64,000 nucleotides of DNA, from contig NZ_BJYJ01000008.1 in assembly GCF_007991455.1 (NCBI RefSeq), forward strand, positions 1 through 64,000, written 5' to 3'. The translations under genes were made by a program, and so were the position numbers. Below, piece after piece: positions 5,804 through 58,559 of the stretch. Position 1 is the first letter of the stretch. Each line of letters starts with the position of its first letter. The notes beneath the pieces are model-generated. The model was given only the letters and a program-made list of their open reading frames with translations, made no database searches and was not told the origin of the DNA. The stretch comes from Chryseobacterium hagamense. GTDB taxonomy: Bacteria > Bacteroidota > Bacteroidia > Flavobacteriales > Weeksellaceae.

Positions 5804-7696
5804 TTATTTCACTTCTTCAAAATCTGCATCCTGAACATCATCAGCACCTCCTGCATTTCCTGCGTTCTGAGCTCCTGCATCAGCACCCGGCTGTTGACCT
5901 GCGGCGTACAGTTCTTCAGAAGCAGCCATCCAGGCAGCATCCAAAGCTTCTGTCTTCGCTTTTACATCATCCGAATTTTTAGCTTCGAAAGCGGTTTTCA
6001 GTTCTCCATGGGCGGCTTCGATGGCTGCTTTTTTGTCTGCAGACAATTTATCACCGAATTCTTTCAGTTGCTTCTCGGTCTGGAAAATCAGTCCGTCTGC
6101 TTTATTGAAGATTTCCACTTCTTCTTTTCTCTTCGCATCCGCTGCAGAGTTTTCCTGAGCTTCTTTTTTCATTCTCTCGATTTCTTCATCGGAAAGACCT
6201 GAAGAAGCCTGGATTTTGATCGATTGCTCTTTACCGGTTCCTTTATCTTTAGCAGATACGCTCAGGATACCGTTGGCATCGATGTCGAAAGTTACTTCGA
6301 TCTGAGGAACGCCTCTTGGTGCCGGTGGAATATCCGTAAGGTCGAATCTACCGATCTCTTTGTTATCGTTGAACATCGGTCTTTCTCCCTGTCCTACTCT
6401 AATGCTTACCGCAGGCTGGTTGTCGGAAGCCGTGGAGAATACTTCAGATTTCTTAGTCGGGATCGTCGTGTTCGCCTCAATTAATTTAGTGAAAACAGAA
6501 CCCATGGTTTCGATCCCCAAAGAAAGCGGGGTAACGTCTAACAGAAGAACGTCTTTTACATCACCCGTAAGTACTCCTCCCTGAATAGCAGCACCGATGG
6601 CTACCACCTCATCCGGGTTAACGCCTTTAGAAGGTTTTTTACCGAAGAATTTTTCAACTTCTTCCTGGATGATCGGGATTCTTGTAGAACCTCCTACCAG
6701 GATTACTTCGTCGATATCGGAAGTAGACAGACCTGCATCTTTCAATGCTTTTGCTACCGGCTCCATTGATCTTCTTACCAGATCAGCAGATAACTGCTCG
6801 AATTTAGCTTTCGTTAATGTTTTTACCAAATGCTTAGGACCCGTCGCCGTAGCAGTAATATAAGGAAGGTTGATTTCAGTCTGCGGAGAAGAAGAAAGCT
6901 CGATTTTTGCTTTTTCAGCCGCTTCTTTCAATCTCTGTAATGCAATGGCATCAGACTTTAAATCCACTCCTTCTTCAGACTTGAACTCGTCAGCCATCCA
7001 GTTGATGATAACGTCATCGAAGTCATCTCCCCCTAAGTGGGTATCCCCGTTGGTAGACAATACTTCAAATACGCCGTCTCCAAGGTCAAGGATCGAGATA
7101 TCGAAGGTACCTCCTCCAAGGTCATATACCGCGATCTTCTGATCTTTGTGGTTTTTATCAAGACCATAAGCCAAAGCAGCTGCCGTAGGCTCATTGATGA
7201 TTCTTTCTACTTTAAGGCCGGCGATTTCACCTGCCTCTTTAGTAGCCTGTCTCTGCGCATCGTTAAAGTAAGCCGGAACTGTAATTACCGCTCTGGTTAC
7301 TTCCTGACCCAGATAATCTTCAGCCGTCTTCTTCATTTTCTGAAGCGTCATCGCGGAGATTTCCTGCGGCGTATATTCTCTGTCGTCGATTTTTACTTTT
7401 ACCGTATCGTTCGGTCCGGATACTACTTTATACGGTACCCTTGTGATTTCGGAAGCATCATCCTTAAAGTGCGTCCCGATAAATCTTTTGATCGAATAAA
7501 CCGTTTTGGTAGGGTTGGTTACCGCCTGTCTTTTGGCAGGATCCCCTACTTTTCTTTCCCCGTCTTCTGTGAAAGCCACGATAGACGGCGTTGTTCTTTT
7601 ACCTTCTGCGTTAGGAATTACAACAGGGTCTTTTCCCTCCATTACAGCAACACAAGAGTTGGTTGTTCCTAAGTCGATTCCAATTATTTTACTCAT
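5804..7696 (-). CDS. dnaK: Chaperone DnaK (Hsp70)
   Basis: The protein has 630 aa from the start [20 protein letters not shown]. An upstream in-frame ATG at 7750 would add 18 residues with no counterpart in the family, so the start at 7696 is chosen. The nucleotide-binding domain shows [17 protein letters not shown] and VGGSTRIP. The linker region is [18 protein letters not shown], followed by the substrate-binding domain and a helical lid. The tail is Ala/Gly/Asp-rich and ends in DADFEEVK, close to the canonical EEVD-like end. It is an ATP-driven cytoplasmic folding chaperone that works with DnaJ and GrpE, neither of which is adjacent. The gene stands alone with its own terminator, and its promoter must lie in the 450 bp shared with ppk. 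Confidence 0.98.
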
Positions 7697-15585: not shown

Positions 15586-16413
15586 ATGAAAGATCAGCTC
15601 GAAGACATTATCCTTCAGGTTCACCGTAAAGAAAAACGGAACCTTTTTACTTTTTTAACCGGTGCCGGAATTTCATCCGACAGCGGGATCCCGACCTACC
15701 GCGGAACCGACGGTATCTGGGTAAAAGGGACGCAGTTCCATAAGCCGGAAGAGTTCGGAACATTAAAATATTTTAAACAGTATCCAGAAGAAGTCTGGCA
15801 GTATGCTTTATTCAGGAAGAAAATGTTTGAAACGGCCATGCCTAACCAGAGTCATCTTGAACTGTCAGAAATCGAGAGTATACTGAAGGACCGTTTTCAC
15901 CTCATTACCCAGAATATCGATAACCTTCACCGCCGTGCCGGCAATACAAGGCTGTATGAAATTCATGGAAACAACCGTGAAATCAAATGCTCCAACGGCT
16001 GCAAAGGCATTGTGTCCCTACCCGAAGAGATTACAGGAAAGGATATTGATGAAGACCTTACCCTGAAAGATACGGAACTGCTTACCTGCCCGGACTGCGG
16101 ACACCGGATGCGGCCGAATATCCTTTGGTTTGATGAATATTATGACGAAAAAACGAATAAAAAGTTCAGCGCGTTAAAGGTTGCGAAAAACAGCGGCGTC
16201 CTTTTTGTTATCGGGACCTCCGGTGCCACCAACCTCCCGCTGGCCATCGCTGAAACGACGTTGAAGTACGGAGGATACTTGGTGGATATTAATACCGAAG
16301 ACAACCATTTTACGGAACTGATTAAAAATAAAAAGAATAAGCTGATCATTCGTAAAAAATCAACCGAAGCATTAGCGGTGATCAAAGCGATTATTAAAAA
16401 TTTAAACCTATAG
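15586..16413 (+). CDS. SIR2-family NAD-dependent protein deacylase (sirtuin)
   Basis: The protein has 275 aa from the start MKDQLEDIILQ at 15586. The upstream in-frame start at 15547 would put 13 extra residues inside the preceding terminator. NAD-binding GAGISSDSGIPTYRG is at residues 26-40, TQNIDNLH at 108-115 and the catalytic His in YEIHGNN at 127. The structural zinc cysteines are C135-x3-C139 and C168-x2-C171. This is a full-length sirtuin domain without an added effector domain, so it is more likely a metabolic deacetylase or desuccinylase than a defence protein. The catalytic core is intact. A disrupted small gene begins 1 bp after its stop. Confidence 0.93.
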   Translation: MKDQLEDIILQVHRKEKRNLFTFLTGAGISSDSGIPTYRGTDGIWVKGTQFHKPEEFGTLKYFKQYPEEVWQYALFRKKMFETAMPNQSHLELSEIESILKDRFHLITQNIDNLHRRAGNTRLYEIHGNNREIKCSNGCKGIVSLPEEITGKDIDEDLTLKDTELLTCPDCGHRMRPNILWFDEYYDEKTNKKFSALKVAKNSGVLFVIGTSGATNLPLAIAETTLKYGGYLVDINTEDNHFTELIKNKKNKLIIRKKSTEALAVIKAIIKNLNL

Positions 16414-16414
16414 G

Positions 16415-16999
16415 ATGTTCGCATTTTCATTGGATACCGGAAAAGAAACTGATATAATTACTTTTATTGAGGATGTTAAAAATCTGGAAAGCAATAAAAC
16501 CAATCCGGGGTATCGTAAAATAACGTGAATTTGAGGTACAAACCGTAATATAAAGGCTGGAAGAGGGAAGCCGGAAGCCGGAAGTTTCTCTTCTCAGACA
16601 CAGGATCAAAGGTCCTGATCATCAAACTGAATAGGTTATCGCTTTATCAGAGGAGTTCTTATTCAATCCTGAATAACCGGCTTTTTCTAATCAGGGACAG
16701 ATTTTTCTTATTTTAAAGTCCTGAAAGGACGACTTAGTACAGGATAGGATAAAATCCTGTCGTAAGCATAAACCGTGTATTTGTTCCTGCACGATGAGTA
16801 TTAATCAAAATCCTGACTGAATCAGTCTCATTTTTATTTTTAAATAATATGCTGAATATGATATTGATACGGTCGAATTCACGTTAAAATAAGATTAATA
16901 CATGTTCATCAGAAAGAAAAATTGACTGATAAAATCGAAAAGGCCGTTAAAAATTATGAAAACCAAGGTTTTATCCATCTGCTGGATAATAATAACTAA
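16415..16999 (+). pseudogene. Small gene (about 71 codons) split by a MITE-like insertion
   Basis: An ATG 1 bp after the sirtuin stop opens MFAFSLDTGKETDIITFIED and so on; it reads 36 codons to TAAAATA (16516-16522), where the repeat element begins and soon introduces a TGA. On the far side of the element, after the second TAAAATA (16885-16891), the same phase continues RLIHVHQKEKLTDKIEKAVK ... FIHLLDNNN to TAA at 16997. Removing the element plus one direct repeat gives one uninterrupted 71-residue acidic/basic helical frame. The protein family is not recognised. The joined frame need not be the whole ancestral gene, but the restoration of phase argues strongly for insertion into coding DNA. 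Confidence 0.65.
16523..16884. mobile_element. MITE-like repeat element, copy A (362 bp)
   Basis: The element begins ACGTGAATTTGA and ends TCGAATTCACGT, i.e. terminal inverted repeats matching at 11 of 12 positions, and is flanked by 7-bp direct repeats TAAAATA. The interior has no long coding frame and is rich in small hairpins: ACAGGAT...ATCCTGT near 16740-16760, GACTGAATCAGTC near 16813, and AAGTCCTGAAAGGAC near 16717. Shared blocks with copies B and C include GGAAGAGGGATGCCG-like, AGGATCAAAG.TCCTGAT.ATCA and AAAATCCTGACTGAAT. It is non-autonomous; the mobilising transposase is not in the window. Confidence 0.75.
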
Positions 17000-17073
17000 T
17001 CATTACGTCCACCTTTATAAGCAACCTTAAAATCAGTAAATCCGACAAAAGCGGCCTGATCCTGAATGGATAG

Positions 17074-17496
17074 GTGTGGTTCAAACCTAAAGGATTTCAT
17101 AAAGTCTTCAAAATGTTTATCAACAATGAAGTTACGGAGAAGAATACCTGGAAAAAACTGCATTGTGATGAATTGCAGGGTTGGCTTGTTTTTGCAGGAT
17201 GCATTGTAAAACCCCGCCCGGACCGCGAAAACCTCGTAATCAGCATTGACGGAAATAACTTCCACAATCTAGATGGTTTTTACTGCACCCTTGGTGAGGA
17301 AATAAACGGAATCGGAGGATACTTCGGCAGGCAGCTGTATGCTTTATACGATTGCTTAAGAGGCGATTTCGGAGTAAAATCAATCCCAGAAATTACTTGA
17401 CATCATCACCAGCGCAGTAGAAAGCTTTTAAAAACAGATTTAAAAAAAATAATAGGTCTGTTTGAAGAATTTGGTATTTCTGTGATTTTAAAGTAA
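17074..17496 (+). pseudogene. Barstar-like immunity gene interrupted by an in-frame TGA
   Basis: The frame (GTG at 17074, or ATG at 17113) encodes WKKLHCDELQGWLVFAGCIV and then a barstar core: VISIDGNNFHNLDGFYCTLG, EEINGIGGYFGRQLYALYD, CLRGDFGVKSIPEIT. A TGA follows at 17398-17400 exactly where barstar-family proteins have a conserved Trp (TGG). After it, the same frame goes on HHHQRSRKLLKTDLKKIIGL and FEEFGISVILK to a TAA at 17494, matching the family's C-terminal helix and last strand. One TGG-to-TGA change therefore inactivates an otherwise whole gene. Barstar homologues inhibit barnase-like RNases; no RNase gene is visible beside it. Confidence 0.8.
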
Positions 17497-37672: not shown

Positions 37673-38167
37673 AAAAGTTTAAGGTTTAATGTTTTAAGTT
37701 CTTTTCAGAAAGATACTTTAAAGTAACGTAAGCTTGATATAGAAATGTGATCGTAAGGCCGGAAGAGGGATGCCGAATACCTTAATGATCAAACTGAATC
37801 TTTTCTCATAGACTTGGTTTTATTTTTTAACTCAATAAACGACTCAACGCAAACTAGAAAGGCAAAATTTACATTGTTTTAAAGTCCCGAAGGGATTTCC
37901 ATAGGATAGAATCCTGTCAGAATCTTGAATCATTTATTCATTCTTACAGGAAGATTTCCACTTAAAATCCTGACTGAATTAACATTAAATTTTATTTTTT
38001 AATTAATTAAACAACTGAATATAAAACATATAAAACTGAATTCATGTTAAAATACAATAAATAAGTTCAGATTACACCGAAGTAGAGTTCTACCTAAAAT
38101 GATTTTAATCAAAATTCATTTTTAAAAGCTATTTAAACGGTTGTATTTATTCGTGCAAAAATTTGTG
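37673..38167. other. Gene-free spacer occupied largely by MITE-like copy B
   Basis: Most of the spacer is the repeat at 37726-38047. The remainder is AT-rich DNA with no recognised gene or promoter; the alkB promoter may lie in 37673-37725. Confidence 0.5.
37726..38047. mobile_element. MITE-like repeat element, copy B (about 322 bp)
   Basis: It starts ACGTAAGCTTGA and ends CTGAATTCATGT, a degraded version of the copy A termini. It is flanked by TAAAGTA (left) and TAAAATA (right). Shared internal blocks with copy A are GGAAGAGGGATGCCG, AATGATCAAACTGAAT, TTAAAGTCCCGAAGGGA, GGATAGAATCCTGTC and AAAATCCTGACTGAAT, all in the same order. Confidence 0.7.
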
Positions 38168-58363: not shown

Positions 58364-58559
58364 TTATGAAGCCTGATGAAAAGCTGGAAGAGGGATGCCG
58401 GATGCGGGAAATTTCTCCTTTCAAAAACAGGATCAAAGTCCTGATGATCAGACCAGTCTTTTGTCATTCGATCTGAGCGTATTCTTATAAAATCCGGATT
58501 GAATGAGCCTTTATTATTTTTCAATTAAGGAAACAGTTGACCATAAGTCGAATTCACAT
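58364..58559. mobile_element. MITE-like repeat element, copy C (about 195 bp, internally deleted)
   Basis: The right end TCGAATTCACAT equals that of copy A except for one base. The left end is degraded. Shared blocks are AAGCTGGAAGAGGGATGCCG, ACAGGATCAAAGTCCTGATG and ATCAGACC. The middle part of copies A and B (AAAGTCC...ATCCTGTC) is missing. Confidence 0.6.

Follow-up and report, generated by a model that had tools for sequence, protein, structure and literature searches.

The window, a stretch of 64,000 nucleotides of the Chryseobacterium hagamense genome, contains a sirtuin gene whose stop codon (16411-16413) is followed by an ATG at 16415. The frame opened by this ATG is interrupted after codon 36 by a 362-bp element bounded by terminal inverted repeats (TIRs) and flanked by the 7-mer TAAAATA. 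Direct re-reading of the sequence at 16415-16999 agreed with the initial annotation, including the 11 matching positions out of 12 between the TIRs and the presence of TAAAATA on both sides of 16523-16884. As had also been described, the two flanks join in phase into an ORF that starts 1 bp after the sirtuin stop, and taking out the element with one TAAAATA leaves this frame open for 71 codons. The relevant features of the window are as follows.

16415-17496, plus strand: pseudogene of a 237-codon barstar-domain gene, delineated by alignment to the intact genes of the congeners G136 (locus L031, 1501-2214) and G172, by codon-position counts and by Pfam
16516-16522, no strand: left target-site duplication, TAAAATA
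16523-16884, plus strand: non-autonomous element of the miniature inverted-repeat type (MITE), 362 bp, aligned end to end with about 41 separate copies in the same genome
16523-16534, plus strand: left TIR, ACGTGAATTTGA, 11/12 identical to the right end
16711-16764, plus strand: embedded two-hairpin repeat, also found alone and dispersed in many congeners
16873-16884, minus strand: right TIR, ACGTGAATTCGA (reverse complement), the exact family motif
16885-16891, no strand: right target-site duplication, TAAAATA
37726-38047, plus strand: copy B, a 322-bp member of the same family, flanked by TAAAGTA and TAAAATA

The interrupted gene had been regarded as a small one whose frame is restored by excision of the element. 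The joined 71-residue peptide does have homologues: 50 of 172 congeners possess one that lacks the element (best E value 4e-31, 76% identity), and the matches run straight over the junction. In these congeners the homologue is nearly always a single open frame, typically of about 237 codons, and the 71-codon ORF corresponds to just its first third. Its stop is the product of a 1-base frameshift near position 16995, and two premature stops follow at 17071-17073 and 17398-17400, such that the gene of the window carries three lesions besides the MITE. The frame is thus reopened for 71 codons by removal of the element, as proposed, but because of the frameshift and the two premature stops excision would not restore the gene, and the notion of a small gene is not supported. 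The Barstar domain (PF01337) was recognised in the C-terminal part of an intact relative (residues 152-229, E value 9e-12, 45.3 bits) and in the fragment of the window at 17074-17400 (E value 1.2e-5, 25.6 bits), both scores being above the curated cut-off of 23.4 bits. The differences between the window and G136 number 29, 27 and 103 at codon positions 1, 2 and 3, respectively. As most changes affect third positions, constraint on the gene lasted through most of the divergence, until fairly recently.

The closest relative, G136, provides the empty site with an uninterrupted ORF that the initial annotation recommended looking for, albeit in another species of the genus. The order of its genes is the same as in the window, namely the sirtuin gene, the 237-codon gene and, on the other strand, a LuxR-type response regulator gene, with neither the element nor a second copy of TAAAATA. 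With the element and one TAAAATA set aside, the nucleotide alignment between the window and G136 is gapless at the junction, and similarity is continuous to position 17496. Both outcomes that the initial annotation had named as refuting its reading are thereby contradicted, as congeners are free of the element here and the joined peptide has homologues. At a second locus, the copy L007 (contig 11), which lies at the 3' end of an ORF of approximately 280 codons, is absent from the orthologous places in G157, G125, G146 and G154, where the matches to the left and right flanks are adjacent or at most about 25 bp apart. All these empty sites come from other species of the genus, none of them from strains of the same species.

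The element belongs to an abundant family. In the genome of C. hagamense (4.67 Mb, 102 contigs), 46 BLAST matches to it represent approximately 41 distinct copies, the others being 72-89% identical to that of the window. The left TIR of the latter has 0-3 mismatches in most other copies. The end motif TAACGTGAATTCGA occurs at 233 sites with at most two mismatches, as compared with 22 sites for the reversed control, and a partial list comprises about 100 elements with common ends. Forty stretches sampled at TIR sites yielded more TIR-bounded elements of roughly 190-377 bp, flanked by duplications of the same type. Of 320 Weeksellaceae genomes, 10 contain the 19-bp end, all of them within the genus, and a scan of a contig database added two more Chryseobacterium records and no others. 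The copies are old, with a median pairwise identity of 78% and 97% for the best pair. Copy B in the window is about 70% identical to the element across the matched part. A third copy, C, at 58379-58556 of the window, is shorter or eroded, with an internal match, the right end TTCACAT and an unrecognisable left end. In another copy (L003, 1469-1864), the first 30 bp or so are tandemly repeated with TAATATA at the internal junction, possibly as a result of nested insertion or slippage.

Most copies other than that of the window sit between genes. When the flanks of 26 copies were joined by script, the copy of the window alone was found to split a gene near its start. Most of the others either lack a frame across the junction or have a short one, of 65 codons at most; at the single locus with a longer crossing frame, L007, the insertion meets only the last few codons.

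To evaluate the flanking 7-mer, the copies were oriented, their ends located and their flanks compared. The ends could be read in 33 copies. In 13 of these, the two flanks are identical over 6-8 bp, with lengths of 7 or 8 bp in eight cases, whereas re-pairing the flanks among copies in 20,000 trials gave a mean of 1.4 and a maximum of 7 such cases, and a mean of 0.64 for 7 or more bp. The duplications vary from copy to copy, with TAAAATA, TATTTTA, TAATATA, TAGATTTA, TAAATATA and TAATTA among them, and nearly all have TA at the start and TA at the end. The initial annotation cautioned that, since the right flank of copy B is also TAAAATA, the 7-mer might reflect a target preference or be part of the element. 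The preference is real, as the targets follow a TA-N2-4-TA rule. Nevertheless, copy B represents an insertion of its own, with duplicated flanks that differ at one position (TAAAGTA/TAAAATA), and other copies have other 6-8-mers at their borders, so the 7-mer is neither part of the element nor the consequence of target preference alone. TAAAATA is a true duplication at a preferred TA-N2-4-TA target. With 362 bp, within the 50-1000 bp range of MITEs, no transposase gene (the overlapping ORFs do not exceed 60 aa), TIRs common to the copies, target-site duplications and empty sites in relatives, the element has the hallmarks of a MITE, and the early view that a mobile family of this type has inserted into a gene is borne out.

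Which enzyme moves this family? In the genome search for full-length elements with the same termini and a transposase, as advocated in the initial annotation, no autonomous version with a transposase between matching TIRs was flagged, either in the 40 stretches at TIR sites or among the ORFs beside 14 unpaired ends. An ORF for an IS982-family transposase was later located within one of these 40 stretches, with one recognisable end only, and full IS982-family elements were found in congeners. The genome has one ORF of this family without stop codons (L091, 7104-8018, minus strand; PF13612, E value 1.3e-70). It contains the D, D and E residues on which seven full-length relatives all agree. Read inward, its right end is AAGTGAGTTCGA, which abuts TAAGTTA within a MITE copy. 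We searched for the left end and recognised none, which means that this copy may no longer be able to move itself. A weaker PF01609 match on contig 4, also considered as a mover, has no matching ends. The surroundings of the IS982 ORF (L091, 5048-8110, on contig 2 of G000), where it adjoins a duplicated MITE end, include a short ORF (6065-6280) that encodes a GG-type leader and another ORF (6520-6813) that contains cysteine; taken as a group, these ORFs resemble a peptide-modification locus.

Full IS982-family elements of 1028-1034 bp are present in G146, G055, G035, G133, G142 and G100, with the ends ACGTGAGTTCGA (G146) or ACCTGAGTTCGR. Their flanks are TAATTA, TAAGATA, TAATTA, TAATTTA, TAAATTA and TAAATA, and thus the target duplication of the MITE is of the same TA-N2-4-TA type as that of IS982 in the genus. 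At two IS982 loci (L152 and L162), the flanking repeats fall outside this rule. One end of the MITE copies L007, L024, L029 and L062 is identical to the IS end of G146 over 12 bp, and over 14 bp in L029, the matches between MITE and IS982 ends extending over 11-14 bp altogether. The interior of the MITE has no significant match in the interior of the G146 element (best E value 0.085), and the internal sequence in common that would be expected of a MITE arisen from IS982 by internal deletion was not found beyond the ends. On the basis of these sequence comparisons, mobilisation by IS982 is well supported by the common ends, which lend no support to descent from it.

We therefore favour, as very probable on the basis of sequence, a scenario in which a non-autonomous MITE with IS982-type ends and target rule was moved in trans by an IS982-family transposase into a barstar-like gene that has since decayed. 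The transposase would bind the ends of the MITE, cut it out or copy it, and join it to an A+T-rich TA...TA site, where the staggered cut would be left as a 7-bp repeat. Here, the element would have landed after codon 36 of the barstar-domain gene downstream of the sirtuin gene. Alternatively, a transposase of another family, now lost, might have mobilised the same MITE structure, with the likeness to IS982 due to convergence or chance. The missing left end of the resident IS982 copy, the unrelated interiors and the situation in G157, with many MITEs and no IS982 match, would fit such a history, although in that genome the helper may have been lost or be missing from the draft. We nevertheless regard it as unlikely, as 11-14 end bases agree and several IS982 elements generate the same unusual duplication of variable length at TA-N2-4-TA. 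Among other candidate movers, ISL3-type transposases are absent from the genome, and its single IS1595-type locus is devoid of MITE-like ends.

The other explanations concern the role of the element. That it is not mobile but has been domesticated as an intergenic RNA or as a regulatory repeat might be argued from the strong folding of its plus strand (z score of -5.9 for the single sequence) and from the intergenic bias of the copies. The consensus structure over 29 copies is negligible (-2.25 kcal/mol), though, the Rfam search of the window gave no match, and the empty site and flank statistics are clear signatures of insertion, all of which make this idea very improbable. The probability that the element acts as a reversible switch, with precise excision turning the downstream gene on again, is close to nil. 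Removal with one copy of the duplication does open the frame for 71 codons, but that frame runs into the frameshift inside a 237-codon gene with two more stops, and the other copies are mostly intergenic.

IS982 elements have ends that start with 5'-AC and direct repeats of variable length (PMC7335449). These features are shared by the Chryseobacterium element, and the IS982 members of the genus share the TA-N2-4-TA duplication with the MITE and nearly match it in the 12-bp end. An IS982 insertion sequence is about 1 kb long and carries a transposase gene (PMC7335449), whereas the element of the window encodes none. In Cardinium, MITECca01 and MITECca02 are known derivatives of the IS982-family ISCca4 (PMC9769881). 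They too are short TIR elements without transposase, with IS982-type ends, a high copy number and a mostly intergenic location, and they are lineage-specific and coexist with IS982 in the same genome (PMC9769881). They differ in size (about 240 bp, as compared with 320-375 bp in Chryseobacterium), in the class of their host and in having kept subterminal IS982 sequence (PMC9769881), whereas in the Chryseobacterium family, for which target duplications and empty sites are documented, identity is limited to at most about 14 bp at the ends. We found no earlier report of this family in Chryseobacterium in the part of the literature that was covered. As IS982-type MITEs are already known as a kind, what is new is the likely mover of the Chryseobacterium family, as suggested by the common ends. 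A likely helper transposase and a target rule can now be named for a repeat family that numbers about 100 elements in a single Chryseobacterium genome. For the annotation of this genus, such elements can be masked and the ORFs that they split treated as pseudogenes. The present case also illustrates that a small 'ORF' obtained by joining flanks can be a mere part of a longer, decayed gene.

The interior of the element holds a unit of 42-46 bp (AGTCCYGAARGGACG...GGATAGGATRAAATCCTATC or AGTCCYGAARGGACGRYYTA...AGGATAGGATRAAATCCTATC), at element positions 191-239, with two hairpins. Of 59 genomes of the genus, 33 gave matches to it, with up to 20 in one congener and none for the control, and it also occurs in genomes that lack the MITE end. 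Among 33 distinct repeats taken from loci of other genomes, the closing pair is C-G (16 cases) or T-A (15 cases), and nearly all pairs are kept. The MITE may have taken up what is otherwise an independent, dispersed repeat. We would propose only tentatively, and with the balance tipped somewhat against it, that the element is a composite, in which IS982-type ends have captured a genus-wide two-hairpin repeat with its own means of spreading or functioning, two unrelated small repeats thereby travelling as one. A repeat module within a MITE is also a feature of BrickBuilt in Porphyromonas gingivalis, another member of the Bacteroidota, whose TIRs resemble those of ISPg1/ISPg9 and whose inner module is a 23-nt minisatellite (PMC4596501) instead of a dispersed two-hairpin repeat. 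A GC-rich stretch of the element, GGCTGGAAGAGGGAAGCCGGA (element positions 24-67, window 16546-16589), also stands alone in many congeners.
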